DNA from: Hysterangium stoloniferum | Lineage: Eukaryota > Basidiomycota > Agaricomycetes > Hysterangiales > Hysterangiaceae | Assembly: GCA_015178975.1 (NCBI GenBank) | Contig: WHVD01000077.1 | Coordinates: 124,001-188,000 of the forward strand | Direction: 5' to 3' | Length of the DNA stretch: 64,000 nt | Shown here: positions 1-19,603 of the stretch, piece after piece | Layout: every line of letters starts with the position of its first letter | Numbering within the stretch: position 1 is the stretch's first letter | The notes under the pieces: generated by a model | Told to the model about the DNA's origin: nothing | Database searches by the model: none | The model's input: the letters and a program-made list of their open reading frames with translations, nothing else | Made by a program: the position numbers and the translations under genes

Positions 1-1509
1 ATCCAGTCTTGCGAAGTGTTATTCTTATGGATACTGAGAAATTACATCGAGATATACTATCGGCAATTCCATCAGACCCAGTCACCAAAGCACACCTCGA
101 TAACCCATCCAACCCCAATTAACCCCAATGGTCACTAGACTCACAAGGTCTCATTAGACTTGACAACCGCATCTATGTACTGGATTCCAATACCCTTCAG
201 CTGCGAATCCTACAACATAAGCACAACCACCCGATCTCGGGACACTTTGGCCTCACACACTCTTTCACTCATTAGAAGAGAATATACATGGCCTGGCATC
301 TGAGATTTTGTTAAGCACTATTGCAAATCTTGTACAACATGTTTACACTCTAAATCACAGTGACACAAACCATATGGCCTGCTCAAACAATTACCAATAC
401 CAGAAAAACCCTGGAACTCGATTTCTATAGATTTCATCGAGCACCTACCGGCATCCAAAGGTCATACAGCAATCCTAGTTGTTGTGGATCAGCTCACGAA
501 GCAAAGTATTTTCATTCCAACATACAACATGATAACATCTGTACAGTTAGCCGAATTATTTGTCACCCACATATTTTCCAAGCACGGCATTCTGTCGCTT
601 GTCACATCTGATCATGGATCTGAGTTTGTCTCTCACTTTTTTAGGTCACTTGGAAAAGCACTAGATATGAAATTACATTTCACTTTGGGCTATCACCCGG
701 AAGGCAACGGCCGAACCGAACACATGAATCAAACTTTGGAACAGTACATTTGTGTCTATTGTAACTATCAACAAGACAATTGGAAATCACTACTACTGCT
801 AGCCGAATTCGCATATAACAATGCACTGAACGCCACTACTGGCATTTCACCTTTTTTCGCAAACAAAGGCTACAACCCCAATATCGCAATCCACCCAGAA
901 CACAATCTTGCATCCACCCATGCTCAAGACTTCGTTACAAACCTTGACGAGCTACATCAAGAACTTCGTAAAACTATTGCAATGGCCCAAGAACAATACC
1001 AACGGTCTGCGGACAAAAATCGACTTCCGCCTCCTGATTTCAAGATTGGAGACCAAGTATTCGTTAAAGCCAAGTTTTTCCAAACTACTAGACCCTCTAA
1101 GAAGCTCTCTGAAAAATATTTAGGTCCATTTGAAGTTATAGCACAAGCTGGCATGCTTTCATGGACACTTCGGCTTCCCGACAACATGCGTGCAGTGCAC
1201 CTGGTATTTCACGTATCTATGTTAGAACCATGTGTTGCTAACAAAATACTGGATCGCATACAACCACCACCTCCACCTGTGATTATTGATGGAGAACCCA
1301 AATTTGCGATATCGGAAATCCTAGACTCAAAAATCGATAATCGCCGACACTCATGCAAATTGCTTTATTTGGTTAAATGGGCTGGCTATGAAGGTACAAA
1401 TGAAGAAACTTCATGGATCCTAGCTACAGAGCTCAGCAATGCCTTGGAAATCGTTTTAAGGTTTCACCAAGCCTATCCGAATAAACCCAGTCCTCTAAAT
1501 TCTTTATAA
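1..1509 (+). pseudogene. Ty3/gypsy pol 3' fragment: integrase and chromodomain
   Basis: The first 480 bases are colinear with the RNase H-integrase linker and zinc-binding region of the gypsy pol at 12461-15710, but in-frame stops and small indels break them. From 484 to 1509 one 341-codon frame is open. It holds the integrase core, with the second Asp in TSDHGSEF and the Glu in GRTEHMNQ, then the GPF-type C-terminal module (KYLGPFEVIAQAG) and a chromodomain (LVKWAGYEGTNEETSWI). Such chromodomains direct chromoviral integrase to chromatin. The window starts inside the element, so its 5' end is not visible. It is a decayed copy, less CpG-rich than the copy at 2181-2738. Family assignment is sure; activity is unlikely because protease, RT and the DDE region's upstream part are missing or broken. 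Confidence 0.9.
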
Positions 1510-1595
1510 CTCTCTCATGCGGTATCCAACCTTTTCCCAACTATGCCTTATGTTTCACGCTTTGTTTGTTTTGTTTTAAAATCATTATATTTTTA

Positions 1596-1925
1596 CTATC
1601 TAAAGGTTTCCTCCACAACCTCTCCTTCCTCCCCGGCTTCCAAACCTACCCCTTCACCGACGGCCACCAACACCTCTTCACTGACCTTTTCCAATACCCC
1701 AACTCCAGGACCAACTCCATCGCAACTTGACACTTCCAGATACTGTTCAAGTTGCTCCCCGGGCGACTCAATCATGCTGGTTTGTTTGTCCAACCCAACG
1801 CCCAATAATCACAGTTGCTCGGTTATGAGCCCTTGTTGTCGTAGTGTCTCGAATTGGAACCAAGTTGTCTCCGAAAAATAGGTGCGCATGAGGTGGTTTT
1901 CCTCCTCTAATGCATCGGCCTGCAT
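1596..1925 (-). pseudogene. Truncated second copy of the gypsy-borne antisense Zn2Cys6 gene
   Basis: On the minus strand this stretch encodes the C-terminal part of the protein annotated at 3074-3806, including ADALEE, LMRTYFSET and LRQQGLITEQL followed by the same TGA. Beyond that TGA a further 69-codon frame stays open (IESPGEQLEQYLEVSS and an acidic tail). The copy ends near 1925, where a DIRS-like fragment begins, so the cysteine cluster and N-terminus are missing. Its position just 3' of a gypsy chromodomain, on the opposite strand, matches the copy at 3074-3806. That shows the gene travels with the element. Confidence 0.7.
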
Positions 1926-1934
1926 CAGCACAAC

Positions 1935-2180
1935 CCATCCAATTCAGTTTTCTCAGTGCATTCGGACAACAGTGGTGTAGTTGCTGTGTTGAACAAAGGC
2001 CAGTCGCACAACAAAGAGACAAACAAGATTCTAAAAGAAATTTACAAACTGTTAGCCACAAATTTGGGTACAGCTAAGAGCCGAATTCATACCATTGAGG
2101 GAAAACATTGCAGATGCCCTCTCCTAAGGCCACATCACCAATTTCCTCAAGGGCTTCCTGAGAGTCCAAACACAGGCCAG
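1935..2180 (+). pseudogene. RNase H C-terminus of a DIRS-like (YR) retroelement
   Basis: The frame from 1956 reads HSDNSGVVAVLNKGQSHNKE, the usual RNase H segment of DIRS-type RT-RNase H proteins of basidiomycetes. After a frame change near 2095 the sequence continues ENIADALS, an in-frame TAG/TAA-type stop, then GHITNFLKGFLRVQTQA. It stops abruptly at AGCT (about 2170-2175), where gypsy sequence takes over. Its missing continuation (SFPRHLLHQIQSL and a stop, then a tyrosine recombinase) lies on the minus strand at 11902-12460. It is therefore the left end of an inverted segment. Assignment rests on motif recognition. Confidence 0.75.
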
Positions 2181-2738
2181 CTACATCAAGAACTTCGTAA
2201 AACTATCGCAATGGCTCAAGAACGATACCAACGGTCTGCGGATAAAAACCGACTTCCACCTCCTGATTTCAAGATCGGAGACCGAGTATTCGTCAAAGCC
2301 GAGTTTTTCCGAACTACTAGACCTTCTAAGAAGCTCTCTGAAAAATATTTAGGTCCTTTCGAAGTTATAGCACAAGCCGGCACGCTTTCATGGACGCTTC
2401 GGCTCCCCGACAACATGCGTGCAGTGCACCCGGTATTTCATGTATCTATGATAGAACCTTGTGTTCCTAACAATATACCGGATCGCATACAGCCACCACC
2501 TCCACCCGTGATTATTGATGGGGAACCCGAATTCGAGATATCAGAAATCCTAGACTCAAAAATCGACAATCGCCGACGCTCATGCAAATTACTTTATTTG
2601 GTCAAATGGGCTGGCTATGAAGGTACAGATGAAGAAACTTCATGGATCCTAGCTACAGAGCTCGGTAATGCCTCGGAAATCGTTTTAGGGTTTCACCAAG
2701 CTTATCCGAACAAACCCAGTCCTCTCAATTCCTTATAA
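2176..2738 (+). pseudogene. 3' part of gypsy-1 pol: integrase C-terminus and chromodomain
   Basis: This frame starts at the codon pair LHQ just after the shared AGCT junction and runs through the integrase C-terminal GPF module (KYLGPFEVIAQAG) and a chromodomain ending in SPLNSL and a stop. It is the piece missing from the minus-strand pol at 12461-15710, which ends at FVTNLDEL; joined, the two give the order seen in the copy at 1-1509. It is followed by the antisense Zn2Cys6 gene, a polypurine tract and an LTR of the same length (721 bp) as the LTR at 16921-17641. It is one half of a single split element rather than an independent copy. Confidence 0.9.
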
Positions 2739-2969
2739 GTCTATCACGCGGTACCCGACCTTTTTCCGACTATGCCTTATGTTTTCACGCTATGATTTGT
2801 TTGTTTTAAAAAGAAAAACCGATATATTTCACTATCTAAGTTTCTCCCTCTACAACTTCTCCCTCCTCTCCGACCTCTGAACCCTCCTCCGCACCGACAG
2901 CCACCGATACCACACCACCGACCTTCTCCGAAACCCCAATTTCATGCCCACCGCAACTTGAGACTTCCA

Positions 2970-3042
2970 AATACTGCTCAAGTTGACCACCGAGAGACTC
3001 GATAACACTGCTCAAGTTGACCACCGAGAGACTCGATAACAC
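2970..3042 (+). repeat. 34-bp tandem duplication
   Basis: A 34-bp unit starting ACTGCTCAAGTTGACCACCG occurs twice in tandem here but once in the homologous stretch near 1740-1800. Because 34 is not a multiple of three, it shifts the extended reading frame of the antisense gene in this copy. Confidence 0.8.
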
Positions 3043-3073
3043 TGGTCTGTTTCTCCAGCCCGACGCCCAAGAG

Positions 3074-3806
3074 TCACAATTGCTCAGTTATGAGCCCTTG
3101 TTGTCGCAACATCTCATATCGGTACCGGCTCGTCTCCGAGAAGTAGGTCCGCATGAGGCGGTTTTGCTCTTCTAGAGCATCGGCCTGTCGCTCCTGGAAT
3201 GAGCCATCGGCCCCCGGGAAAATACACCCAAGCTTCTGATCAGCGCACTCTTGACAAGTGCGGCCCCGACCATTGGTCCGGGGATGACAGGTTCGACCCC
3301 GTTTCGTGCACCAATTGCACTTGGGGTCATTTTCGGGCCCCGCCTTGGGGGCCTGCTTTTGTTTCTATATAAAAAAAATAAAAAAAAATTATTTAGGAAG
3401 TTTTTATTTTAGGAAACTGAACCCACCTTGGGGCTCGACGGCCCCGGTGCATCCTCCTCGTCCTCCTCTCCCTCTTCGTCATCGGACTCCGAAGGCGTTG
3501 CAGCCTTGCGCTAACAAATATTGTCAGTAAGGTTCGCAAAAGACACCAGAGCCGACTCACTTTCCCCTCCCGTTTCTTTTTTGCCACCTCCTCCCGCGCC
3601 CGATCGGCCTCCTGCTGCTTGTTCTTTGCAAGCACTGCTTCCCAGTGCTTGCGCGCGGCCTCTTCTGCCGCCTGTTTCTTTTCCTCGGCCTCGATGGCCG
3701 CCAACTCCTCCTTCTCTTTCCGCTCCTCCTCTTCACGTGCCTTTTTCTTCTGCTCGAGTATACGCCGACGCTCTTTCGCGTTCGCCGTACCACTCGGCGC
3801 CGACAT
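3074..3806 (-). CDS. Zn2Cys6-like coiled-coil protein, antisense gene inside the gypsy element
   Basis: Three exons (3806-3561, 3510-3427, 3364-3074) join in phase across two introns with GT-AG ends (3511-3560 and 3365-3426) to give about 206 residues. Residues 1-82 are a Lys/Glu-rich coiled coil (ERRRILEQKKKAREEEERKE), followed by an acidic linker (SESDDEEGEEDEEDAPGPSS). A cysteine cluster then fits CX2CX6CX10CX2CX6C exactly, the spacing of the fungal Zn2Cys6 DNA-binding domain, and a short helical tail ends at TGA. The gene runs antisense to pol, between the chromodomain and the 3' LTR. A truncated second copy sits in the same place near 1596-1925, so it is carried by the element. DNA or nucleic-acid binding is inferred from the cluster alone. 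The frame after the TGA stays open in both copies, so a longer spliced form is possible. Confidence 0.7.
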
Positions 3807-4019
3807 GGGCGCAACTGTTAACCTAACCGGGAAGGGCTTTGACCCCGAGCCTATGGTCATGGTGGTTAAAGGAAGGGAAGTGGAATTTCAAGCGCCAGGA
3901 ACTCTCAAACTTTTATATGCAAACTTTTGCCGAGTCACATGATGTTTGACACACCCAGCCATACCCGACAAGTTTTTACGTACGGGATCTAGATTTTCGG
4001 CCTCCTTGGGATTTCGGCC

Positions 4020-4033
4020 AAAAGGGGAGATAC
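4020..4033 (+). other. Polypurine tract of gypsy-1
   Basis: AAAAGGGGAGATAC lies directly before the TGTTACG start of the LTR at 4034. Position and composition are those of a plus-strand priming tract. Confidence 0.75.
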
Positions 4034-4754
4034 TGTTACGACCGTGTCGCAACCCTATCGGCCCCGAGGTTATCGCCACTTGTCAACATTTCAAGTCATC
4101 CTCTCGGAAACCATCGGCCCCGAAGCTGACGAATGTTTCGCGAAGATCAAACTCCATTTACGCCCACGTCAAATAACTCGTATTGTCTGGTCAAACTTTG
4201 ATACGTCCCCTTTATTATGTTGATCCGTTTCAATCTTATGTTTCGCATATGTCTATCTATATTTGTAGTCCTCGAACCATTTCCTTTTACCGTAATCCCG
4301 CTCTCGGTAATCATCGGCCTCCGAACTAATCATAAACTTCCCGTTCCTAGTCAAGCTTATTGTTAATACCGTGTTCCGCCCTTCTCTCCATTAGTATTTT
4401 CCAGACGCCTGTTACTTGTATATGAACCCGCTGTAATTGTAGTTACGAGGCAATCAGAATATCGACTCAGAATACCCTCATACACCTGTATCAGTCTCAT
4501 ACTAAGACTTTCCCCATCCGCCTTCGCGTGCGCTCGCCCACTCCCGGCCCCGACCCCTTGGCCCGACGCCCGACTTGTCCTTCGATTCCGATCGGTATCA
4601 CGCCGAAAGGTACTCACTAGGACTAGTCTTCGCCCGCCCGAAATTTAAGGACATCCTACGGATATTTGCGGGGGCGCAGCCCAAAAGCTGAAGCCAAGTC
4701 CTTCCGATCGGTCCCTGTCGGCCACCGACATTAGTCAGTTTCCAGTTCTTAACA
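4034..4754 (+). mobile_element. 3' LTR of gypsy-1 (LTR family A, 721 bp)
   Basis: It begins TGTTACGACCG and ends CAGTTCTTAACA. Length and sequence match the inverted LTR at 16921-17641 almost base for base (one difference seen is CAACATTTC against CAACGTTTC), so the insertion is young. The base after it reads CTCTT, whose complement AAGAG equals the base run after the other LTR. The shared LTR core GGGCGCAGCCCAAAAGCTGA lies at 4672-4691, with AAGGAC upstream and GTCCTT downstream able to pair. Confidence 0.95.
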
Positions 4755-4987
4755 CTCTTGAACTTAGCTAATCATCTAAGTTCTCCCAGCCTCACAGTTA
4801 CCCCTTAGGCTTATTAACTACATAATAAACCTAATAAGTATTCTTACTGAAATCCCTGCCAACACTTAGATTATTCGAGGCCCATACCTAAGTTAGTGAA
4901 GTACAAGCACACAAGAAATGCAACACAAATTAGTCTCTCTGTTAATAAATTATTTAACACCTTGTTAAATACCTATTAATAGTTACA
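4755..4987 (-). mobile_element. Half of an LTR (family B) interrupted by gypsy-1
   Basis: It is the reverse-strand 3' part of the LTR seen whole at 27415-28399 (shared CTTAGCTAATCATCTAAGTT and the end CTATTAATAGTTACA). Similarity stops right after that ACA. The other half lies at 17642-18295, beyond the gypsy 5' LTR, with AAGAG duplicated at the two gypsy junctions when the inversion is undone. Confidence 0.85.
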
Positions 4988-5240
4988 CATAATCATACAA
5001 GAAACTGAAGCTTTATATCAAGTCTCTGCTATGTTACTGTGCATATACTCAGCTTCTAGCCCCTATTCTCAAGGAATAGCTGTTTATTTGCTAAAAGAGT
5101 CATTCACAGTTCTATTGAACCTTTCAATAATCAAAATAAGCATTGATTTTAGTTGTTTAAGCTTAATAGTGCAACTAATTAATCTATCAGTATTTAAATT
5201 ACTGGACCTTTGCTTGTTTTATTGTTAAAGCTCTGTGACA
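4988..5240. other. No gene seen; AT-rich spacer
   Basis: AT-rich sequence between the LTR half and a copia remnant. Short open frames here match nothing I recognise. Confidence 0.5.
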
Positions 5241-5717
5241 CTATAGCATATATTGAGCTATCCAAGAGAAACCCCTAAATACATTGCAGCGATGTATTTC
5301 TGTACAGTAGCTTAGTAATCCTAATTCTTTTTGTTTGGGTCCATGGTGTACCAACATGTTGTACCCCCCTTCTTGTGTCAACACATTTGTCTCAAAAGAA
5401 TTAATGCTAAGTCTTTTGTCAACAAGCATGCCCTGTATACTACATGATTGCCATCTGCATTATATGTACCTATTGGCAAATGTCCATTGAGTTTTCATAT
5501 ATCTAACATCACCTGGAGGTTCAATGACTTCCCACACATCACATTTCTCCATGACCACTAATTCTTTAGCTAGTGGGTCAGCCCAGATATCTGGATGGTT
5601 CATTGCCTTGGTATAGGGGTGAGGAAGGCAATAATTGCATGGGTCTGGAAGTCTCTCTGTGGTAGCAGTAAAGATCCTGATACTATGAATATTGGTAGGT
5701 GATTTGGTGTTTGTCAA
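5241..5717 (-). pseudogene. Ty1/copia reverse transcriptase N-terminal remnant
   Basis: The minus strand reads MNHPDIWADPLAKELVVMEK, then DVWEVIEPPGDVRYMKTQW and TFANRY, followed in a shifted frame by NADGNHVVYRACLLTKDLA. This is the start of a copia RT (the WVFANKY-NADG-KARLVAKG region). Frames are broken and it fades into unrecognised sequence near 5240. After undoing the inversion it lies upstream of, and in the same orientation as, the copia RT piece at 18298-19206 (SVMHYESLHKNLAIAA), which is the next segment of the same domain. Confidence 0.6.
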
Positions 5718-6094
5718 CCCTCACATCACCTGCATCCCTCAGCAAGTTCCACATGTTTTTAAGAGACTTTCAGCGCCAGCATGTTACAGAAGACAGCTAA
5801 AAGGAGAACACCCAATCTAGCGAAACACCTGTTGCGAGGAGCAAGGCCCCAGTTCCCGTTTGATAATTCCTCTTGGATGCTTACTATTATATCTGGTTAG
5901 GCTTTAGTTGCTGGTATTACTTATTGACTCTCTTCGTCTCATTTTGTGTTGTTGGGTTCCCATACTTTACTGTACTGTGCTAGTATGTTGTTAGAAGGAT
6001 AGAATAAAAAGGGGATCAAGGCACGGAATAGTGATCCTAGTGACAAATAGACCACCATTCGGACACGGACACATACTGGTTACCAGAAGTAAAC
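5718..6094. other. No gene recognised
   Basis: Nothing could be assigned. A weak LTR-like stretch (GGATAGAATAAAAAGGGGAT near 5998) looks like a promoter-type tract but has no partner here. Confidence 0.4.
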
Positions 6095-6500
6095 AAACTC
6101 AGACGACCACACGATATGGATAGGGACTATTATGGATACATGTGGGTCCTTAGGGTTCTGAACTACAAATTCCAACATATGTATCAATGACACAATTTTT
6201 CGATGGATTGTTATTGTTAAGGCACCTCATTATTCGAAGCTGGTATCTACATAAGTAGTTCAGTCAAACATATGCCATGCTAGTTGAAACAACCAATCGG
6301 AGTGACACAGGCTATGGAGCAAAAATTCAAGGAAATCCGAAGAATGAGTAGTATACCTGTATCGGTATATATACATAAGTGCCATGTAAGGAACAAAGAT
6401 GTGTTACTTACCATATTTCAGTCATGTCAGAGTAGCGCATACCCACTTCCCACTGGCCGTGAAGCTTTGATGAAGACGCCGTTAGCAAACACAAGTTGGA
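6095..6500. repeat. Dispersed duplicate, copy 1
   Basis: It shares long near-identical runs with 10240-10594, including GGACTATTATGGATACATGT and GCCATGTAAGGAACAAAGAT. On the minus strand both copies contain a likely splice donor (GTAAGTAACACATC) after an exon-like frame ending KASRPVGSGYALL, so the source may be a gene. The product is unknown. Confidence 0.75.
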
Positions 6501-6619
6501 AATGCGAGCACCGACCTTTGAGTAGCAGTTACAACAGAAAATACCCCCATCCTTCTCAGTAATACGCGTAGAATCAAGTAAAATGTGACCTTCCATGCAC
6601 CTCAAACAAAGCTTATGCT

Positions 6620-6892
6620 ATGCCCCCCCCGCCACCATCACTTCATGAATTGCGCCAGAAAACATCACCATCTGCTCTTCCCGCGAATCCCATGAATTTG
6701 GGCATCACTACCGTCTTAAAGAAGGAATCAACATCACAGGTGTTTTCTTCCGTGCATCTAGCGCGGGACGAAAGGATCACTGCGATATCCAAGGAAATAT
6801 CTGAGCGAATTGTCCGGGGCGTACTGGGGGTGGCGATAAATCCGAGCAATGTGGTTGGGATCGATGGTCACCGCGGAGAATACCGTCCATAG
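6620..6892 (+). pseudogene. FunK1 kinase, N-terminal fragment
   Basis: The 90-codon frame carries VLKKESTSQVFSSVHLARDE and ERITA, closely like residues 30-55 of the FunK1 gene at 34141 (ILKKESRSQLYSSMHLARDE). FunK1 proteins are fungal protein kinases expanded in mushroom-forming fungi. After about 6892 no FunK1 kinase domain follows, so only an N-terminal scrap remains. It could also be the first exon of a gene whose rest was displaced by the nearby rearrangement. Confidence 0.6.
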
Positions 6893-7152
6893 GAAGAGAA
6901 CCAGGAGCAAAGTTCACAAATAAAACGCCAGATATCCAGAGAACGCCAACGCAGACTAGAAACCAAATAATCCAACGCAGCAAAGGACGACCACAACCGA
7001 AGGACAGCCAAACATTCAGTGAGGATGAGCGTTGTCTGCTGAATGACTGACATGGGTTCGGAGTATTTTGAGGTGACAGGGAACTTAAAATGAGTGATGA
7101 GCACTGAGTGAACTGAAAACGCACCAAGAAAATCGTTGATACCTATGTACAC
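6860..7152 (-). pseudogene. Possible decayed multi-pass membrane protein
   Basis: Two minus-strand frames overlap. One reads LTECLAVLRLW and the other continues LLRWIIWFLVCVGVLWISGV, a strong hydrophobic segment. A one-base shift would join them into a membrane-protein-like product. No family is recognised and the call is weak. Confidence 0.25.
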
Positions 7153-7610
7153 CTACATTCCCTACAAAGGGATTGTCAGTTGCAGCTTCACTAAGACTAA
7201 GTGCAAGTGTTGATAGGACTGGAGTATATTCATCAATGAACAGAGACGGTAGGTAAAACGATAATGAAAAAACTACTATGCGCGTTTATCGTAATTATCT
7301 AAGGAAGCGGATACCAAATATTAAAGGTCCGTTGTGGTAAGGCTGGTAAGCCTCACCAGGCTTACAGTTGGCGGGCAGGCAAGGCCCTGTTTTGCTACCA
7401 ATGTGCCTGTTCATAGCAAAGGAGTATCTATTTTATTGGATTCATGGGAACACCAAGGACAGAATAGAAAGTAATGTAATTAAAAGGCACACCCTGCACA
7501 ATCCACCTTCCGCTGCTCATCATAGCGTGCATCCTGGTGTCGTGAGGTAGTTGCTTTGGTTCAAATGTTGGTCATATCGCTACCGACGCTGCTCCTTCAG
7601 GGCGTGTTTC
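7153..7610. other. No gene seen
   Basis: Spacer downstream of the HNH-like gene on the minus strand. It would hold that gene's 3' region. No repeat or ORF of note. Confidence 0.5.
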
Positions 7611-8797
7611 TCACAAAAAAATACAAAGGATGACTGACTTTTCTGCCATTTTCTGCCTTATGAGGTAAGCATGGACATGTGAACCTAGCGGGGTCGACCA
7701 TCTTGGATCACGAGTATCTATCTCGCCATCGTAAACGCCAAGTTCTTCCATGAAATTCTCAATCTCCTGCTCATGGTAATCTTCCATGACGTCGCCACGG
7801 CCGACACTGACAGCAAGGCATTGTTGGAAATGCAGACGGAGAAACCGGTCGCTAGGTCTATAGGGCCCATCGACAAGGATCATATGGCTTTTCAACGGTA
7901 CACCACTGGTTAAGCTTTCCGACCCCTCGAATAAGATGATGCGATAATCGTCCTGTATGTCATGGATACCACAGCTAACTATTTGAAAGGGAGAATACGC
8001 ACTTCAACGTCAACGCCGAGTTTGTTTTCCCAAAAGAGGGTGACAATGTCCTTACGACCTGATACGACATTTTCGACCACCATCAAGTCGCGTAGATCGC
8101 ATGCATCGGGATCTTGATAGTATTTGTTCTCTAGCCATGGGTCATCATTTGACAGCTTATTAGGGATAATAAGGATCGCGGAAAATATCAACATAGATGC
8201 GATGGTTCGAAATGTTACACAACTTGCCTCATAGCCCAAGAATGGGGGAAATACCCACGTTGCTACCAGCGCATCAGAGCCACAGCTTGGCACGACACCA
8301 GAAAAAATGCATTGACGATCTCTATCGAGAGCTTGTTGAATGATAGGGGCGGTCAAGGACGCCTGTTAAGCATCAGAGAGAGTAAAGCACATTCCACGAC
8401 ACAATGAGGTACCTTGGCGGAGAGCAACGGGCTATTTTCTTTCACTCCTTCCTCAATAATGGAAAATGGGTGAACTGGTTGGAAGAAAAAGTAAAGTGAG
8501 GGGTCTCCTGTGTCAAGGTCACGTAGCCTGTAGTGGTACACGAAATAGTATTCTTGCCTATAGCATATAACCCATAGTCTCCAGGAACAATCATGTTTTG
8601 AGATTCTCGGGACAAGGCAGCGCCATTTTTGTGGACAGAATACGTCAACACAATACTAGGTCGAACCTCGACCGGGAAGAGAGTATACGTCTCCGCTTCC
8701 TCCCAAGGATGATACCGATCTCGACCAAAAACAGCATCAGTTATCCAGCGATATGCTGTCGAAACAGTAATGGGTGAGTTGCTATCAACACGCCAGC
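7611..8797 (-). CDS. HNH endonuclease-like protein of the basidiomycete type, with a frameshift near 8550
   Basis: Four exons are visible: 8797-8413, 8362-8228, 8155-8003 and 7952-7611. Introns 8363-8412 and 7953-8002 are 50-bp GT-AG introns; 8156-8227 is GC-AG with a textbook AG/GCAAGT donor. Joins are in phase and give ALDRDRQCIFSG (the HNH cysteine segment), LVATWVFPPFLGYE, DPWLENKYYQD, DIVTLFWENKLGVDVE and the C-terminal block LRLHFQQCLAVSV, MEDYHEQEIENFMEELGVYD, DPRWSTPLG. I recognise this as the fungal HNH-like family. The His usual in the AT-H-IFP segment is Trp here, so nuclease activity is doubtful. In exon 1, GDYGLYAIGK and FVYHYRLRDLDTGD lie in different frames, so a one-base indel near 8550 probably inactivates it. 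The true start was not found: exon 1 is open back to a possible acceptor at 8798-8799. Confidence 0.65.
8156..8227 (-). other. GC-AG intron
   Basis: The donor reads GAG/GCAAGT and the acceptor AATAAG/CTG. Removal joins GYE to LSNDDPWLE in phase. GC donors usually show exactly this strong AG/GCAAGT context. Confidence 0.75.
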
Positions 8798-9555
8798 CTT
8801 AATATGAGTTTAAGGACGATTTTGGAGATTGAACGTCAAAAAAACTCTCCTAAGGCCACTTGGTGCGAATCAGTGCACCAAATGAAGACGTTGCGGTGTT
8901 GTCGAGTGGATTTTTTGGACAAGACGTGAACGGGTTCGTACATAGCGGTGTGACTGGTGCGTAGTAAGAGTGCCGCACAATCCCTGGCATGCCGGGAGAA
9001 GTTCGGCACTCAACGTCCAGCCGAGCGTACGAAGGATTCTCACGCCTTTTGTTTTCTGCGACGATTCTGTTGCTCTAGTCTTTAAAAATTTTACGCTCAA
9101 TTGATGCATTATCATTTTTTAAAACATTTCTAATTATTTTGATCTCACACCATGAGGTCTATATCCTTGCCACAATGGGTCTTTGTGCACTTGGATATTG
9201 ACCTGGGTGGAGAGAGGCACCCACCTCACACAGAGGCGGGGTTTGGGGCCAAAACACCTGGGGCGGCTGGGATCCCAGAACATTCAGTAGTACTACCAAC
9301 AAGGCTGTTAGCAATGGTGGGGAGATAGCCTGGTTGATGGCACACAGGCACCAGTTACTAAATAGCAGTAACTCTGAGAAACAAGAGGGGAGACCTATGG
9401 CAGATGCTTCACCAGGCAAAATGAATTTGTTCACGAACCCAGGAGCACCACAAGGGGTCAAGGCTGCAACATCAATGACCGAAGAAACCTGGGGCAATGG
9501 AAGACTCCACTCCCTGAAATCATACCAGGTTTTAAGGCAAACTCCCAAAAAATCC
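8798..9555. other. No gene recognised; possible promoter of the HNH-like gene
   Basis: It contains short frames on both strands with no recognisable motif. A missing first exon of the HNH-like gene could lie in 8800-9100. Confidence 0.4.
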
Positions 9556-9635
9556 ACAGTTTAGCTGCATTGGTGGAATGTGTGCAGCTCAATTCAGACA
9601 GTTTAGCTGCATTGTGGAATGCATGCAGCTCAATG
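9556..9635. repeat. Tandem pair of a 38-bp unit
   Basis: ACAGTTTAGCTGCATTGGTG followed by a GCAGCTCAAT end occurs at 9556-9594 and again, with a few changes, at 9598-9635. Each unit holds AGCTGCATT...GCAGCT, an inverted repeat. Confidence 0.7.
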
Positions 9636-9966
9636 AGAAACTATCACCCAAGTATAAAATAAAAAAACTTGATCCTTAGGGCATGTAGATAAGGAACAAC
9701 ATTCTGGCATTCATCCTGTATCAGTGGCACCTGCTTTTCCTGGCACAAGGAGTCGATCCCAAAAATAATGAGATTAGCAGGCAGATGAAAATAATTAGCA
9801 TACAAAGCTTACATTATGGTCTTCAGACAGATCACACCACGGCATATACTGTAAGGAACCATTTCAGTTGGAAATGTAGCTGCCTATGGTTGGGTAGGCA
9901 GGCTTTGGTGGGTGAGCGGCGAGTCTTCCCACGTATACATGGACAGCTAACGCTCTCCCCCTACCC

Positions 9967-10197
9967 TGTTGGAATACAAGTGTTACATAAGTTTGTAACA
10001 CATATTCCTTTTGTTCTTTGTTCTTTGTTTCTTTACTCCCATTGTTCAATCCCTTTTTGTAGCAGACATATATAAGTAGCTTAGTGTTCATGTATCTACT
10101 CATTCATTTGCCTAATCTTACTACAAGATATATGCACAAACGAAATTTATATACTGCTCTTATAGTTCATTTGGAGCTTCTATATTTTATTTCAACA
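9967..10197 (+). mobile_element. Possible short copia-type solo LTR
   Basis: It starts TGTTGGAATACAAG and ends TATTTTATTTCAACA, so it has TGTTG/CAACA ends, and contains ACATATATAAGTAG as a TATA box. It abuts the duplicated segment at 10200. No perfect target duplication was found, so the boundaries are tentative. Confidence 0.45.
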
Positions 10198-10239
10198 ACA
10201 TACTGATTAACCAAACTCAGAAAACCGCATGTTGGACAG

Positions 10240-10594
10240 AGTAACAGACATCGATAGGGACTATTATGGATACATGTGGGTACTTAGGGTTCTGAACCAC
10301 AAACATATGTCTCAAGGACAAGTGCATTAACAATAACAATCTGCATAAGTAGTTCAGTCAAATGTATGCCATACTAGTTGAAATAGGCAATTGGAGTGAC
10401 ACAGGCTATGGAGCAAAAATTCAAGGAAATCCAAAGAATGAGTAGTATACCTGTCTTGGTATATATACATAAGTGCCATGTAAGGAACAAAGATGTGTTA
10501 CTTACCATATTCCAGTCATGTCAGAGTAGCGCATACCCACTTCCCACTGGCCGTGAAGCTTTGATGAAGATGCTGTTAGCAAACACAAGTGGGA
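10240..10594. repeat. Dispersed duplicate, copy 2
   Basis: Partner of 6095-6500, over 90 percent alike by eye, cut at 10597 by the insertion of an LTR that begins TGTGATG. Confidence 0.75.
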
Positions 10595-10597
10595 AAT

Positions 10598-11372
10598 TGT
10601 GATGTATCTAGTATATATTCACAAATTTTCCCTTAATTTTCCCGAATTTATTTCAATTTATTTTATTCTATTTTATTTTATTTATTAATTCAAGAATTAG
10701 GCTATTTCCTTTTAACTTCGAATACTCAAAGCTTCGAATGACATCATATTATGTAATTGAAGCCTAGAGCGGTCGAAATATAAATATAATAAAGCCAGGT
10801 TATCTAATTTCGAGAGACCGGGTTTTTATTATATTATATTAGTACATATATGCGCATTATTATCGCGCGATCACGTGACATAACGTGACGACGACGTCAC
10901 GACGTGTTTACAAATCGTCGCGAGTAGTTTTCGCAGCCGCCCGGCCGTGTTTATTTCCGTTTTGGCGCCACGGCTTATTTTGCTTCCACCCTCGGCCATC
11001 CCGGGTTTATTTCCTGGCTCGACCGGTTCGGATCTTCGGTTCGGATCTGCGAGTCGGGTGATAGCTATGACATCATAGCGGAATTATAGAAACTTTTAGA
11101 AGCTTCTAATAATTTCCTAATTAGTTATTTAGCTATTATTAAGCAAAAATCTCTACATGTATAAAAGGAGGCCTAAATCACTGAATAAATCACTACTACT
11201 TTATTACTATCAACAGCACCAGCTCAAAGCTTATCTAATCATCCTAAGGACAAAAATAGCCTTAGTCTGATATCTAATTGCAAGCACCTACACTTGCAGC
11301 ATCTTGAACTCTTTCTCTTGAACTTAGCTAATTCATCTAAGTTCCCTCAGCTTCCTGGAAAACCTTTAGGCT
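10598..11372 (+). mobile_element. LTR, family B variant, 3' end truncated
   Basis: It starts TGTGATGTATCTAG inside the duplicated segment. It then follows the layout of the LTR at 27415-28399: AT-rich 5' part, CTTCGAATACTC block, TATA box, CTTGCAGCATCTTGAACT and ACTTAGCTAATTCATCTAAG. Unlike the other copies its middle (10860-11050) is CpG-rich. At about 11372 it is joined to a truncated family C LTR. Confidence 0.65.
11157..11170 (+). promoter_or_regulatory. TATA box of LTR family B
   Basis: TGTATAAAAGGAGG stands about 60 bases upstream of a conserved CACCAGCTC/AGCTTATC block. The same TATAAAAGGAGG, reversed, occurs in the copies near 17805 and a similar TATA stretch near 27815. It is the likely transcription start region of these LTRs. 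Confidence 0.55.
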
Positions 11373-11901
11373 TACTAATGCTCCCATTCCATTCCATCCC
11401 TAAGACCTAGTTTGGTGTGTACCTGTCTTGTTTCATGATTACCTGTTTTGCACCTCATTATTACCATATTTGGTATTTCATATATTTCAAAGCCTATATA
11501 GTCTTCCATACTCATGTAGTTACAATCCAGTTTCAATCTCAAACTAGTTACACCCTGAATACATCCTGATCCAGTCTCTACTCCTCTTGTCTGTCTGCAT
11601 GTTAGATTCCTGGAACTCCCATGGGAGCTCGAGAATCTACATCTTCCTTGTAGGCATTCCATCAGCTTGAAATATGGACACCTGAGTGATTGTATGAGGG
11701 TGCAGCACATAAGCTGAAGCCAAGTCCATCCCAGTACCTCTGGTAATTATTCTGATACTCCTTGTACTAATCCTGAGAAAGTCCCCAGACTGTTACCTGG
11801 GGACTCCACAGGACAATCCCAGAAAGCATTCAGAATAATTACCAGAATCCCCAAGGACCTTGAGAGATCCTCTTCAGAATGTATCAGTTTGGAACTTAAC
11901 A
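11373..11901 (+). mobile_element. LTR, family C, 5' truncated
   Basis: It matches the flanks of the minisatellite-bearing LTR at 52538-54954 (CATTCCATCCCTAAGACC to GGAACTTAACA). It carries a single CTCAAACTAGTTACACCC where that LTR carries over 1 kb of tandem repeats. The shared LTR core GAGGGTGCAGCACATAAGCT is at 11697-11716. It ends at 11901 inside the tyrosine-recombinase fragment. Confidence 0.7.
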
Positions 11902-12460
11902 CCAGCCCTCTCAGTGACCATTCAATTCTCATCCATTCATTGTCTGACAGGTGGTGCCAACCTTGAGTTATGTATATGCCATGCTCTAACCACTGCTAGG
12001 TATTTCTGAGTAACACCAACTGACACAGTCTCAAATGCCATCCCAGCAGTTGGTTCCTCACTGATCAATGACGAGTCCACTGCCACCCAAAGTACGAATG
12101 AATTTGAAATTGGGAAGGATGCCAGTAGTCTGTCAGCTTCTGCTATAGAGAAGATATTGCAAAATACATGGAACTTGTGAAGACCTGATCCATAGCTATT
12201 TGTGTCCCACAGTGATGCTTCAGAGGCTATGGATGCTAGTAACTGCAGGACTGGGTGCTGCACTGTGGATGGTGGTGGTGTGTTGATCCCTTCTCACATG
12301 AACAGCCTCTCCTTAGCTCTACATGGAGGCCTCAGTACTGACAGAATGAGTTGTAACTGTCCAGATGGTAATGTCTGCACTTTTGAGGCAAAGGGTGTTG
12401 ATGCCCTTGCAGGTGCTATAGTGATTGGATCTGATGTAACAAGTGCCTGGGAAAGCTCGT
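11902..12460 (-). pseudogene. DIRS-like element: end of RNase H ORF and start of tyrosine recombinase
   Basis: Read from 12460 downward, one frame gives SFPRHLLHQIQSL and a stop, the natural end of the RT-RNase H ORF whose front is at 1935-2175. A second frame gives LRPPCRAKERLFM, TGA, then QLLASIASEASLWDTNSYGS, GLHKFHVFCNIF, AEADRLLASF and YLAVVRAWHIHNSRLAP. This is the N-terminal SAM-like region of the YR recombinase of DIRS-like elements. The TGA replaces an expected Trp. The fragment is cut at 11901 by a family C LTR, so the catalytic domain is absent here. Confidence 0.75.
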
Positions 12461-15400
12461 CGAGGTTTGTAACAAAGTCTTGAGCACGGGCGGATGCGAG
12501 ATCGCGTTCCAGGTGGATTGCGATGTTGGGGTTGTAGCCTTTATTTGCGAAGAAAGGCGAAATGCCAGTAGTGGCATTTGGTGCGTTGTTGTATGCGAAT
12601 TCGGCCAGCGGTAGTAGTGATTTCCAGTTGTCTTGTTGATAGTTGCAATAGACACGGATGTATTGCTCCAAGGTTTGATTCATGCGTTCGGTTTGTCCAT
12701 CGCCTTCCGGGTGATAGCCCGAAGTGAAATGTAACTTCATGTCTAGTGCTTTTCCGAGTGACCTAAAGAAGTGAGAGACAAACTCGGATCCGCGATCGGA
12801 TGTGACATGCGACGGAACGCCATGCTTGGAAAATACGTGGGTAACGAATAATTCAGCTAACTGTACAGATGTTATCGTGTCATATGTTGGAATGAAAATA
12901 CTTTGCTTTGAGAGCCGATCCACAACAACTAGGATTGCTGTGTGACCTTCGGATGCCGGTAGGTGCTCGATAAAATCCATAGAAATCGAGTTCCAAGGTT
13001 TTTCCGGTATCGGTAATTGTTTGAGTAGGCCATATGGTTTGTGTCGCTGTGATTTAGAGCGTAAACACGTAGTACAGGATTTACAATAGTGCTTAACAAA
13101 ATCTCGGATGCCGGGCCATGTATATTCTCTTCTAATGAGTGAGAGGGTCTTATTGAGGCCGAAATGTCCTGAGATTGGGTGGTCGTGCTTATGTTGTAGG
13201 ATTCGCAGCCGAAGGGTGTCGGAATCCGGTACATAAATGTGATTGTCAAGTCGAATGAAACCTTGTGAGTCTAATGACCATCGGGGTTGATCGGGGTCGG
13301 ACGGGTTATCGAGGTGTGCTTTGGTGACTGGGTCTAATGGAATTGCCGATAGTATGTCTTGATGTAACTTTTCGGTATCCATAAGGATAACACTTCGCAA
13401 GACTGGATGAATGAGGTAAGTGGCTCGGATAGACGCGGACAGTTGTTCCGATGAAAACATAGGTTTGAAATTATGCGGATTAACTGTGGCGTAGTCGCTA
13501 CTCCCCTCTTTAGGATAGACGTCCCATCGTCTAGTCATAGCGTCGGGTTTTCCACCAAGGCGGCCGGGACGGAAGCGAATTACCATGTTGAAAGCGGAGA
13601 GGTATTCGGACCATCGAGCTTGTCGACGGGTGAGAAGTTTTGTGGTTGAAAAGTAAACTAAATTTTTGTGGTCTGTAATAACATCTACCGGGTGGGCCGA
13701 GCCCTCCAAATAATGTCGCCATGTCTTGAAAGCTTCAGAGATTGCGAGTAATTCCTTATCGTGAACGTCGTAGTTGAGTTCGGGCGCCGAAAATGTGCGA
13801 GACAGAAAAGCTACTGGGTGTACTTCACCATCGGTGTCCAGAATGGACAATATCGCGGCAAGCGCATAGTCCGAAGCATCAGTTTCCACGATGAGTTGAA
13901 CGTCGGGTTTCCAGTGCGACAAAATAGGGGCGGATGTAAACGCACTTTTCAATTCCTGGAATGCCGATCGGCATTCGTCGGAGAAATTCCACGGGGTGTC
14001 TTTGCGAGTAAGACGAGTGAGCGGAACAGTAATTTTTGAGTAATTGTGAATGAAACGGCGATAAAAATTGGCGAAGCCTAAAAAGGATTGAATATCTTTA
14101 ACCTTTCGGGGTTCCGGCCAATCTTGAATGACTTGAATTTTAGCGTCGTCGATGCGGAGACCATCGGGTCCCATCATGAAGCCTAAGTATTCAACCGTGT
14201 CGACATCAAAAGAACATTTTTTACCATTCGCAAAAAGACCATGTTTTCGGAGTCTTCGGAGGACTTCACGGACGTGTTCATCATGAAGTGTAGGGTCTTC
14301 GGAGAAGATGAGGATGTCGTCTAGGTACACAATGACAAAGACGTCAAGGAGGTCGGAAAAGACGTCGTTGATAAAACGTTGAAAGACCGACGGAGCGTTG
14401 GTGAGGCCGAAAGGCATTACTAACCATTCGAAGGAGCCATAGCGAGTGCGAAAAGCCGTTTTCCATTCGTCGCCTTCGGCGATCCGAACCAAATGATAGG
14501 CATGTTTGAGATCTATCTTTGTATAAATTCGGGCCTTCCGAGGGGCGTCGAGTAAATCGGAGATTAATGGTAATGGGTACTTGTCTTTTCGAGTAATCGC
14601 GTTTAGTCCTCGAAAGTCAACGCAAAGTCGAAGGGAACCGTCTTTTTTCCGAACGAATAGGACAGGGGCTCCATAGGGAGACTTTGAGGGTCGGATAAAA
14701 CCTATAGCCAAATGTTCATCCAAGAAATCTCGGATAGCCGATAATTCGGACTGCGAGAGAGGATAAACTGGGCCTAGGGGCGGATGTGAACCATCTTCAA
14801 TATCAATTTTCAAATCGTAAGGCCTGTGAGGGACGAGTCGATCGGCTTTTTGTTTACTGAAGACATCTGCAAATTCATGGTATTTTTTAGGAACACCTTC
14901 TAAATCTGCGATCGGTTCGGTCACCGGGGATGCAAAGCGACCGGTGACTTCGTCAACTTTAAGATTGACTGTAAATGCTCGGGAGCCGTCCAGCTTGATG
15001 GCTCTCATAAAAGCTGCGGCGTTTATTAGAGAGACGGGCGGCGGAGAGCTCGGATTTGCCACAGGGGCCGGAGGTGCTGTAGAGGCCATATTTGCCGAAA
15101 CAGGCGGAAACGGACCAGTCGTATCGGGTGCCGACGGGGTTCGGAAATGGATACTGCCCAATACCCAATCAATCAACGGATTGTAGCGGGTGAGCCAGTT
15201 ATGTCCTAGAACCACGGAGCAGCTCGAGTCCAACTGTGTTACAAAAAACGTAACTGTCTGAAAGGTTCCACATGGGAACCGAAGTCGGAGTTCGCAGGCT
15301 TGCGAGATTACGGAGTTTGAGGTACCATCAAAAAGTCGGAGCGGAATCGGATCTATTGCATAAGTTTTCAACTGTTTTTTTCGGGAAAAACTTGTATCTA

Positions 15401-15710
15401 TAAAACAGTGGGTTGAACCTGAATCTATGAGAGCTCGAAAGGTGAAACTCCCGAGAGGTTCCGAAGTAAGATTTATGAACAAAGAATTAGGATCATACAG
15501 GGTGGATGCGTTAAGATGACAATTTTCCGGTGTGCGAGGAGATTCAACGCAACTCTCCAACCGCACGGAATCCAGAGAGTTGCTTAATCTTTTTTCGACT
15601 CGGCAGCCGGCTTGGCCGGTTGTGAGGTCGTGGCCGTATTGGCCGATCGGGCTTTTGTGGCTTTTGGGCAAGCAGCGACTCGGTGTCCGGGATCTGCACA
15701 CAACAAACAA
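12461..15710 (-). CDS. pol: gypsy-1 Pol: protease, RT, RNase H, integrase, truncated by an inversion breakpoint
   Basis: One open frame of about 1080 codons. In order it has an aspartic protease (ALIDSGSTHCFID near residue 95), a reverse transcriptase (DLKHAYHLVRIAEGDEWKTA and the active-site YLDDILIFSED), RNase H (VETDASDYALAAIL, NYDVHDKELLAI), the zinc-binding HHCC region (HPISGHFGLNK to YCKSCTTCLR), and the integrase core with its three acidic residues in SMDFIEHLP, TSDRGSEF and GQTERMNQ. The frame leaves element sequence after FVTNLDEL, where AGCT joins it to DIRS-like sequence. The next 54 codons to 12294 are not gypsy. The missing integrase C-terminus and chromodomain are at 2176-2738. 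Pol begins in the -1 frame relative to gag, overlapping its end. The RT and protease motifs are intact, so this was recently an active element. Confidence 0.95.
15584..15596 (-). promoter_or_regulatory. Putative -1 frameshift site between gag and pol
   Basis: At the very end of gag the codons are TCG AAA AAA GAT TAA. Pol is open in the -1 frame through the same bases (GAA AAA AGA TTA). A slip of one base on the A6 run before the stop would give a Gag-Pol fusion. A pseudoknot downstream was not assessed. Confidence 0.55.
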
Positions 15711-16882
15711 AGGTTGTTGTCCATTCGGCGTTGCTTTTCCTGTGGTAGGAGCTTGCCATCGGAGCCGAGTTTGCCAGTTAAGTCGGGTTTGTCTTTGTCT
15801 TGAGACTTATTTGACTGTTTGCCCTTGCCTTTTTTGTCGTTAGACCCTTTGTTTTCGGACTTCTTATCGGAAGTCGAGTTGCCAGTGTTATTGGTGTTTT
15901 GATTACCAGACTTGTTGGCATTCTTGTTGTCCGATGATTTTTTGTCCGACGGGTTTTCGCGACTGATTTCCGAACGTCGTTCCCAGTATCGAGTGTCTGC
16001 GTTTTGGGCTTTCAGGCGCATGAGAGGGAGGGTTTTCGGCTTGCCGGTCTCTCCTTTGGAGACTTCGTCTTTGAGGCGAGACGGAAGGCCGGAGTAAAAC
16101 TGGTAACGGAGGGCCGAATCGCCCCAGTCGCAACGCGCGGCGAGGTTGTTGAACTGGACGATATAATCGGTGATGCGCTGAGTGTCTTTCATTTTGAGAT
16201 TAGAAAGCGCGGTTTCGGCATCGCCGGTTTGGTCGTAGGGACCGAAGTTGGTTTCGAGTTCCTCAACAAAAGCATCCCAATCGTGGAGCCAATCGGGGTC
16301 TTCGGAGGTGAGGCCAGAAAATGCGGGTTCAAACCAGGCTGCTGTGGAATCCTTAAGGTATGAAAGTGCGAAGTTTACCTTTCGGTCATCCGTTGCGAAT
16401 GCAGCCGGGCGGTCCCGAAAGTTGAATCGACATTGCATAAGGAATGTCGGCAATTTCTTCGGGTTTGAGCCAGTAAATGGCTCGGGTTTGTTGACTCGGG
16501 TTTGCCCAGGTTCCTTTTCCTTGATATTGCTTTTAAGGAATTCATTAAGGGATCCTAGTGTACCTGAAAACAATTCCCATGTTTCTTCAGGGTCGAGAGC
16601 CGGTTTCTTCTTTGCAGACTTCTTGGAGCCACTAGCCTGAGGTTGGTCGCCATCCTCGGGTTCGTGTTCCGAAACTGGTTGATTGTTAATCTCCTCAGTT
16701 GCTTCGGGATCGGTTGCTTCAGTTACTTCTTCAGCATCGCCGGTAATCTCCACAAAGCGAGATTCTTCGGAGGTTTCTGGTAACGGAGTTTTCTGAGTAG
16801 CTCGGGCTGTATACAGAAAAGGAGACTTGAGAGTGGAAGATTCTGCTTCGCCGCTAGGCTTGGCATTTTTCCTCGGAGGCAT
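15584..16882 (-). CDS. gag: gypsy-1 Gag (432 aa)
   Basis: It starts MPPRKNAKPSG 38 bases inside the 5' LTR. A charged N-terminus is followed by the retrotransposon Gag core (PTFLMQCRFNFRDR, ALSYLKDSTAAWFEPAF, WDAFVEELETNFGPYDQTGD, DYIVQFNNLAARCDWGD, FYSGLPSRLKDEV), a Ser/Asn/Lys-rich linker and one zinc knuckle, CLLCADPGHRVAAC (CX2CX4HX4C). Gag packages the element RNA into virus-like particles in the cytoplasm. Its stop lies just after an A6 run that could serve as the frameshift site into pol. The frame is undamaged. Confidence 0.95.
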   Translation of the reverse strand: MPPRKNAKPSGEAESSTLKSPFLYTARATQKTPLPETSEESRFVEITGDAEEVTEATDPEATEEINNQPVSEHEPEDGDQPQASGSKKSAKKKPALDPEETWELFSGTLGSLNEFLKSNIKEKEPGQTRVNKPEPFTGSNPKKLPTFLMQCRFNFRDRPAAFATDDRKVNFALSYLKDSTAAWFEPAFSGLTSEDPDWLHDWDAFVEELETNFGPYDQTGDAETALSNLKMKDTQRITDYIVQFNNLAARCDWGDSALRYQFYSGLPSRLKDEVSKGETGKPKTLPLMRLKAQNADTRYWERRSEISRENPSDKKSSDNKNANKSGNQNTNNTGNSTSDKKSENKGSNDKKGKGKQSNKSQDKDKPDLTGKLGSDGKLLPQEKQRRMDNNLCLLCADPGHRVAACPKATKARSANTATTSQPAKPAAESKKD

Positions 16883-16920
16883 GATTAGACGGAAAATGCG
16901 AGTGTAAAATCAGAATATAC

Positions 16921-17641
16921 TGTTAAGAACTGGAAACTGACTAATGTCGGTGGCCGACAGGGACCGATCGGAAGGACTTGGCTTCAGCTTTTGGGCTGCG
17001 CCCCCGCAAATATCCGTAGGATGTCCTTAAATTTCGGGCGGGCGAAGACTAGTCCTAGTGAGTACCTTTCGGCGTGATACCGATCGGAATCGAAGGACAA
17101 GTCGGGCGTCGGGCCAAGGGGTCGGGGCCGGGAGTGGGCGAGCGCACGCGAAGGCGGATGGGGAAAGTCTTAGTATGAGACTGATACAGGTGTATGAGGG
17201 TATTCTGAGTCGATATTCTGATTGCCTCGTAACTACAATTACAGCGGGTTCATATACAAGTAACAGGCGTCTGGAAAATACTAATGGAGAGAAGGGCGGA
17301 ACACGGTATTAACAATAAGCTTGACTAGGAACGGGAAGTTTATGATTAGTTCGGAGGCCGATGATAACCGAGAGCGGGATTACAGTAAAAGGAAATGGTT
17401 CGAGGACTACAAATATAGATAGACATATGCGAAACATAAGATTGAAACGGATCAACATAATAAAGGGGACGTATCAAAGTTTGACCAGACAATACGAGTT
17501 ATTTGACGTGGGCGTAAATGGAGTTTGATCTTCGCGAAACATTCGTCAGCTTCGGGGCCGATGGTTTCCGAGAGGATGACTTGAAACGTTGACAAGTGGC
17601 GATAACCTCGGGGCCGATAGGGTTGCGACACGGTCGTAACA
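16921..17641 (-). mobile_element. 5' LTR of gypsy-1 (family A, 721 bp)
   Basis: Plus-strand ends are TGTTAAGAAC and GTCGTAACA. It is the near-identical reverse complement of the LTR at 4034-4754. The bases after it, 17642-17646, are AAGAG, the complement of CTCTT after the other LTR. Reverse-complement LTR core at about 16974-17006. Confidence 0.95.
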
Positions 17642-18295
17642 AAGAGTGCTGACAAAGAGTTCTAGATTCTGCAAGTGTAGGTGCTTGCAGTTAGTATATC
17701 AGACTAAGGCTATTATTGTCCTTAGGGTGATGAGATAAGCTTCTGAGCTGTGCTGTAAAATATGTGTGATAAGATGATTTATTGTGGATTTCTGGCCCTC
17801 CTTTTATACATTTTGATAACTAATTATTTAACCATTTAATTATTTTATGATATTATCACTGAGTCAGTAATGATATCATGTCTAACTATTTATTACCCCT
17901 TTTTGATCCTATGACTCCCCAGTCTGAGACAAGGGCTTCAATCTAAGCCTGAACTTGAAGGTTCAGAGCCCAAGACCTGGGTCAGAATCAAATGCCAATG
18001 ACTCGAAGTTGACTTCAGTAATAAGTCACATGACTCCAAAAATGTGCACATAGCAATAAGGCAAAGTGCCGGGAAGCAATAACTAAGTTAATAAAAGATA
18101 AATAATTAGTTAAGAATTATAATTAATTAATTAAGATATAATAGCATTATATGAGCTCATATATGCTATTATTATGTGAAGTTAAAAGGAACTAGGCCTT
18201 ATATTTCACAATAAAAATATAATAAAAATACAATAAATTCAAAAAAATACTAATTAATTCAAGAGAATTTTATGAGATAATACTGATACCTCACA
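17642..18295 (-). mobile_element. Other half of LTR family B split by gypsy-1
   Basis: Colinear with 27650-28399: GCTGACAAAGA, CAAGTGTAGGTGCTTGCAGT, CTATTATTGTCCTTAGG, the TATA region and the ATAATAGCATTATATGAGCT block. It ends with the reversed LTR start at 18295 (CCTCACA). Its missing end is at 4755-4987. Confidence 0.85.
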
Positions 18296-18297
18296 AT

Positions 18298-19206
18298 CAC
18301 CTAGCAAATATATTGGTGACCAACAAGTGTCATCATGGTGAGATTACTACTGAAAAGCCAAAATGTTCACAAAATGCTTCAGTCATGCATTATGAATCCC
18401 TTCACAAGAACCTTGCAATTGCTGCTGCTTGTTACGACCGTGTCGCAACCCTATCGGCCCCGAGGTTATCGCCACTTGTCAACGTTTCAAGTCGTCCCCT
18501 CGGAAACCATCGGCCCCGAAGCTGACGAATGTTTCGCGAAGATCAAACTCCATTTACGCCCACGTCAAATAACTCGTATTGTCTGGTCAAACTTTGATAC
18601 GTCCCCTTTATTATGTTGATCCGTTCAATCTTATGTTTCGCATATGTCTATCTATATTTGTAGTCCTCGAACCATTTCCTTTTATCGTAATTCCGCTCTC
18701 GGTTATCATCGGCCTCCGAACTAATCATAAACTTCCCGTTCCTAGTCAAGCTTATTGTTAATACCGTGTTCCGCCCTTCTCCCCATTAGTATTTTCCAGA
18801 CGCCTGTTACTTGTATATGAACCCGCTGTAATTGTAGTTACTAGACAATCAGAATATCGACTCAGAATACCCTCATACACCTGTATCAGTCTCATACTAA
18901 GACTTCCCCCATCCGCCTTCGCGTGCGCTCGCCCACTCCCGGCCCCGACCCCTTGGCCCGACGCTCGACTTGTCCTTCGATTCCGATCGGTATCACGCCG
19001 AAAGGTACTCACTAGGACTAGTCTTCGCCCGCCCGAAATTTAAGGACATCCTGCGGATATTTGCGAGGGCGCAGCCCATAAGCTGAAGCCAAGTCCTTCT
19101 GATCGGTCCCTGTCGGCCACCGACATTAGTCAGTTTCCAGTTCTTAACACTGCTCCAAACATGGAAGCATGGCAGGTAGATTATGTTGCTATGTATCTCA
19201 GCTCAC
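18298..19206 (+). pseudogene. Ty1/copia RT fragment interrupted by a solo LTR
   Basis: Removing the LTR at 18430-19149 and one target copy joins HYESLHKNLAIAAA to NMEAWQVDYVAMYLSS. This is the copia RT segment around the first catalytic Asp (usually QVDYVAAYLN). It is bounded on the left by the family B LTR and on the right by another LTR start at 19207. Confidence 0.65.
18430..19149 (+). mobile_element. Solo LTR, family A (720 bp), target duplication CTGCT
   Basis: Ends TGTTACGACCG and GTTCTTAACA. CTGCT is found at 18425-18429 and again at 19150-19154. Almost identical to the gypsy-1 LTRs, so it is recent. Formed by recombination between the two LTRs of an inserted element. Confidence 0.95.
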
Positions 19207-19446: not shown

Positions 19447-19603
19447 CTGATTTTTCCCAATGAGGATACCTTAAGCATATACTTGATAGGTTTGGAATGA
19501 CCAATCAATCTCCAGTGGCAATGACATTCATTGTGGGGAACAATTGGTCATTCCAAACCTGTCAAGTATATGCTTAAGGTATCCTCATTGGGAAAAACTA
19601 AAT
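19447..19603. repeat. Inverted repeat of the copia LTR start
   Basis: Arms of about 57 bases at 19447-19503 and 19543-19603 are near-perfect reverse complements (CCTTAAGCATATACTTGA against TCAAGTATATGCTTAAGG). They flank a 40-base spacer that contains the presumed LTR start. Confidence 0.75.

Follow-up and report, generated by a model that had tools for sequence, protein, structure and literature searches.

The interrupted repeats of the window

The window analysed here is a stretch of 64,000 nucleotides from Hysterangium stoloniferum (contig WHVD01000077.1, C530 in our numbering, positions 124001-188000) and its sequence contains not a single N. Nested repeats make up much of its first 19 kb. 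They include a Ty3/gypsy retrotransposon (gypsy-1), a long terminal repeat (LTR) designated LTR-B, the copia-like element that is host to LTR-B, and a DIRS-like fragment. Reversing one segment of 10,275 bp repairs all four elements, as checked against paralogues in the same genome. On the assembly as it stands, a 10.3-kb inversion with both breakpoints within transposons has good support. The features of the region are as follows, in window coordinates.

1..1922, plus strand: gypsy-2, an older fragment of the gypsy-1 family, unbroken at the gypsy-1 break (self-alignment; Pfam integrase core, SH3_Tf2-1 and chromo)
1921..2178, plus strand: DIRS-like left piece, left of the inversion (98% to a copy on C290 over 259 bp)
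2179..12453: inverted segment, 10,275 bp (self-alignment and sequence read)
2179..2182: left junction, first copy of AGCT, of gypsy origin; its A is assignable to either side
2179..4033, plus strand: gypsy-1 3' part, the SH3_Tf2-1 and chromodomain end of pol (Pfam, self-alignment)
4034..4754, plus strand: gypsy-1 3' LTR, 721 bp, followed by CTCTT
4755..5288, minus strand: LTR-B first part, beginning with the 5 bases that were duplicated as the target of gypsy-1
5289..5293, minus strand: LTR-B target duplication, ATCGC on the minus strand, alike in 4 of 5 bases to ATCAC at 18296-18300 (sequence read, empty site L081)
5291..5757, minus strand: copia-like host, left piece (96% to C146:854906-855370)
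11379..12453, minus strand: DIRS-like right piece, within the inverted segment (three copies match about 1075 bp of it at 95-96%)
12454..12457: right junction, second copy of AGCT, of gypsy origin
12454..16920, minus strand: gypsy-1 5' part, with gag and with pol as far as the integrase core (Pfam)
16921..17641, minus strand: gypsy-1 5' LTR, 721 bp, 3 differences from the 3' LTR
17642..18295, plus strand: LTR-B second part, starting with AAGAG, the gypsy-1 target duplication
18297..18429, plus strand: copia-like host, right piece, ending at the solo LTR (93% to C146:855369-855504)
18430..19149, plus strand: solo gypsy LTR with target duplication CTGCT, inside the copia-like element and independent of the inversion

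A single inversion broken in transposons at both ends had been proposed by an earlier, sequence-only reading of the window. The paralogue comparisons described below bear this out, with the limits moved from 2170..12460 (or 2174-12459) to 2179-12453.

Four elements and their uninterrupted relatives

We searched the whole assembly (111,116,353 bases in 554 contigs). For each query the best 40 matches were compared, out of 708 candidates for gypsy, 1174 and 956 for the two LTR-B pieces, 1094 and 109 for the left and right copia-like pieces, and 97 and 113 for the left and right DIRS-like pieces.

The minus-strand body of gypsy-1 stops at 12454 in ...GACGAGCT and the remainder, AGCTACATC..., is found on the plus strand from 2179. 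The unbroken relative gypsy-2 shows how the two belong together: its bases 1-953 align with 13408-12454 (minus) and its bases 950-1922 with 2179-3187 (plus). Because these alignments overlap exactly in AGCT, gypsy-1 must have been split at AGCT, and the two halves of pol rejoin as had been proposed. The gypsy-2 stretch 860-1030, which spans this point, was covered from base 1 to base 169 or 171 of its 171 bases in 39 other places; for one of these the measure was 168 genome bases rather than at least 169 of the 171 query bases. Of the 721 positions of the two LTRs 3 are different, and a 5-bp target duplication adjoins them on the outside, as CTCTT at one and as the complementary AAGAG at the other, so that their pairing also stands. 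They now face each other in inverted orientation, which the normal insertion of an LTR retrotransposon does not yield. The pieces of gypsy-1 separately match the Pfam models for gag, protease, reverse transcriptase, RNase H, integrase and chromodomain. By these domains, its LTRs and the CTCTT target duplication gypsy-1 is a Ty3/gypsy element with a chromodomain. It shares the domain set and the 5-bp target duplication with that group; unlike an intact member it is split by the inversion and its LTRs are inverted. Elsewhere in the genome, at C518:470918-472139 and C94:151527-152789, opposed gypsy LTRs abut or nearly abut, possibly as a result of insertions of one LTR into another.

The two parts of LTR-B adjoin in eight paralogues among the places compared (29 of 66 places from the search with one piece and 40 of 40 from that with the other). 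They overlap by 5 bp in seven of these and by 4 bp in the eighth, whose match begins at query base 2. The shared bases, AAGAG, are those into which gypsy-1 inserted, and the two sites that we read directly carry AAGAG only once. The halves are thus those of one LTR, as had been suggested. Its left part, previously ended at 4987, reaches 5288: most of the listed paralogue matches begin at query bases 468-470, which lie near this position. LTR-B is itself preceded by ATCGC and followed by ATCAC. A second, diverged relative of LTR-B is found within the inverted segment, where 10596-11378 is a partial match; at 11379 the DIRS-like piece ends and this LTR-B-like sequence starts.

The two copia-like pieces adjoin on C146 with an overlap of 2 bp and the target ATCAC is present there once, in what is a single paralogue. 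This agrees with the order and orientation assigned to them before. The right piece, taken earlier as one piece from 18298 to 19206, ends at 18429, since the solo gypsy LTR at 18430-19149 had been missed inside it. The name copia is that of the earlier reading; Pfam gave no supporting match for the copia-like pieces at E up to 1.

The DIRS-like pieces are collinear elsewhere in the genome. A right-hand match is paired with 38 of the 40 listed left-hand matches, and the two unpaired ones are the window itself and a locus on C517. The latter runs on in the same way, so that 39 of 39 other listed loci are collinear. To see the unbroken site we cut out the loci of the best 30 right-piece matches, which gave 29 paralogues after exclusion of the window. 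In all 29 the site reads GGCC, then ten bases, then the homologue of 12453. The ten-base stretch occurs in five versions, with ACATTAGACA in 21 of the paralogues, and AGCT was seen at this site in none of the 29. In one uninterrupted copy, L058, the reading frame continues to ...HLLHQIQSL-stop, as had been predicted from the window. The accompanying names, RNase H and tyrosine recombinase, gained no backing from the databases: there was no supporting Pfam match for the window pieces (E up to 1) or for the L058 frames (four at E up to 0.1, two at E up to 10), and a search of PDB sequences with two reading frames of the uninterrupted copy returned matches at chance level only (E 1.5 and 1.1). 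By their motifs the L058 frames may resemble DIRS/Ngaro proteins (RNase H, tyrosine recombinase). On the left side of the DIRS-like fragment, at 1919-1923, gypsy-2 is truncated in its 3' part and fused to it, which makes another junction of unrelated repeats beside the inversion.

Origin of the two junctions

At the left junction the window reads GGCC and then AGCTACATC; at the right junction gypsy GACGAGCT is followed by TTCCC. With up to 3 mismatches allowed, a 38-letter pattern for the left chimeric join and a 39-letter pattern for the right one each have a single match in the genome. Other copies with the same chimeric structure had been named as a ground for refutation, and none carries it at this stringency. 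A 5-bp target would match by chance about once in 1000 cases (1/4^5), and three further joins coincide with it.

One break lies in gypsy pol and the other in the DIRS-like element, so the breakpoints are not copies of one opposed repeat. When 200 bp of DIRS-like flanking sequence were compared with 200 bp of gypsy flanking sequence, the alignments did not exceed 16 bp (best E 1.5), and long homology between the breakpoints was not found. Sequence from one of the breakpoints, AGCT, is found at each end of the reversed stretch (2179-2182 and 12454-12457). Since this AGCT is derived from gypsy-1 and is absent from all 29 DIRS-like sites, the event would have duplicated 4 bp of gypsy sequence and removed about 10 bp of DIRS-like sequence. 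The first base, A, can be assigned to either side and the duplication may therefore be 3 or 4 bp long.

The locus is probably the product of an intrachromosomal inversion of 10,275 bp, in which breaks in two unrelated repeats, the gypsy one staggered, were joined end to end in inverted order. Read from the nesting of the sequences, the history begins with the copia-like element, which received LTR-B (targets alike in 4 of 5 bases). Next gypsy-1 inserted into LTR-B with its exact 5-bp target duplication. A DIRS-like fragment lay nearby, and the sequence is now reversed from a point in gypsy-1 pol to one in this fragment. The gypsy break may have been staggered by the 4 bases AGCT, and fill-in would have put a copy of AGCT at each junction. 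The DIRS-like break would have lost about 10 bp by trimming before non-homologous end joining, presumably, rejoined the ends in inverted order. The outcome is a split gypsy-1 whose LTRs face opposite ways.

Events of this kind are well known and the locus is a clear example. In the available parts of two reports on Drosophila, breakpoint sequence doubled at both ends of an inversion is attributed to staggered breaks and end joining, as in inversions 2h and 2q of D. mojavensis and O4 and O8 of D. subobscura (PMC3355041, PMC5080602). These cases and ours have in common that original break sequence is doubled, with a copy at either end of what was inverted. As far as those parts go, the Drosophila duplications are kilobases long (1, 4.3 and 7.1 kb in D. 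mojavensis) or hold parts of genes (PMC3355041, PMC5080602), whereas here the duplication is of 4 bp, the 10.3-kb segment lies wholly within repeats and sequence was lost at the other break.

Several points weigh against this reconstruction. The join is known from the assembly and is not proved in DNA. The staggered cut is deduced from very few bases: the doubling of AGCT is weak evidence when taken alone, a duplication of 3-4 bp says little in favour of a staggered break, and filler sequence or microhomology could suffice to explain it. The length of the DIRS-like loss is estimated from paralogues rather than from the earlier, unbroken state of this copy. The gypsy matches, being the best 40 of 708, are biased toward whole copies. 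Some of the counts are also untidy. On C112 near 1.388 Mb and C511 near 194 kb the LTR-B pieces share a strand but are separated by 966 and 960 bases; these copies are interrupted or only partly aligned and so were excluded from the eight. The spacing of the DIRS-like anchors, whose positions are extrapolated from alignment ends, is 15 bases in 34 of the 38 pairs, 9 in three and -7 in one, while that of the rejoined window would be 6. One right-hand DIRS-like match, on C171, lacks a listed left-hand counterpart. A second haplotype of the locus, looked for with the interior stretch 6600-8800 only, was not seen, because that interior is itself a repeat whose best other copies reach 94%.

A different origin for the doubled AGCT might be sought in the enzymes of mobile elements. 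An integrase or transposase, and not random damage, could have cut gypsy-1 at AGCT in an aborted integration with a 4-bp target duplication, and this could have driven the inversion. Intramolecular strand transfer doubles its target, with one copy at each end of the segment, and the two copies of AGCT fit such a course. We nevertheless regard it as unlikely, since the DIRS-like break is in the middle of the element with no element end in sight, and the gypsy and LTR-B insertions of this region have target duplications of 5 bp, not 4 bp. If true, it would mean that transposon enzymes can turn small segments around where no homology exists, with no element left behind.

The sequence-only reading had assumed that both original sites possessed AGCT and that the breaks were joined at this shared palindrome. 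The presence of AGCT at both current junctions is what such a microhomology inversion predicts, but the 29 examined DIRS-like paralogues have GGCC and 10 other bases in its place. The comparison leads us to reject shared AGCT microhomology, and we now think an inversion by this route distinctly improbable. Junctions alone, with AGCT in both, mislead as to mechanism until paralogues are compared.

Might the assembler simply have placed the segment backwards? The region is dense in repeats and carries near-identical inverted LTRs, a setting in which assemblers often err. The junctions, however, are situated outside the near-identical gypsy-1 LTRs and in non-homologous sequence, no N interrupts the window, and an exact scar with 4 bp doubled and about 10 bp missing is not expected from a wrong join. 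The chance of such an error seems to us very small.

Ectopic recombination between inverted repeats, for instance the inverted LTRs or gypsy-1 and another copy, is scarcely credible: inverted gypsy LTRs are present at the locus and the rearrangements of Verticillium dahliae resolved in detail are, in the available part of that report, mostly over similar transposons (PMC4971763), but the breakpoints here are mid-element in unrelated elements with no repeat in common, and we reject it for the lack of homology between the flanks compared. In that fungus 8 of 12 reconstructed rearrangements were over highly similar transposons and their repair was read as homology-based, according to the same part of the report (PMC4971763). 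With these our locus shares the setting, a fungal rearrangement with breakpoints in transposons; it differs, as far as that account goes, in that its two elements are unrelated (PMC4971763).

Age, significance and neighbouring sequences

The inversion comes last in the series of events. The divergence of the gypsy-1 LTRs is K = 0.0042. Substitution rates between 1e-9 and 1e-8 per site and year would place the insertion of gypsy-1 some 2 to 0.2 million years ago. Because LTR divergence dates the insertion and the inversion came later, this age is an upper limit only; to this extent the event may be called recent, as it had been, and the LTRs do not date the inversion itself.

What makes this small inversion valuable is that it is unusually legible. 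The nested insertions, with two target duplications of which one is exact and the other alike in 4 of 5 bases, put the events in order, and the paralogues display the unbroken state base by base. The locus shows how rearrangements can arise in repeat-dense regions even where the breakpoints share no homology. No effect of the inversion on a gene was seen, although genes were not sought in detail, and no host function is indicated. Among the listed papers on inverted LTRs, staggered breaks and fungal inversion breakpoints none was seen that deals with this locus, which does not prove that none exists.

The interior of the inverted segment, 6600-8800, is present elsewhere as near-full copies with 89-94% identity (C36, C24 twice, C146, C79). 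Two reading frames within it had no Pfam match at E up to 10. On either side of it lie direct repeats (6113-6503 and 10247-10597), 83% alike with gaps and about 4.1 kb apart, that may mark the two ends of a single element. Beyond the inversion, 19451-19597 is an inverted repeat with arms of 64 nt, 92% complementary and spaced by 19 nt. Far to the right a minus-strand frame at 54220-54948 contains about 20 tandem repeats of TCSSVQ. A second minus-strand frame (59830-60744, 304 amino acids) contains the stretch HSLRRGAASSAAEAG, which may resemble tyrosine recombinases.

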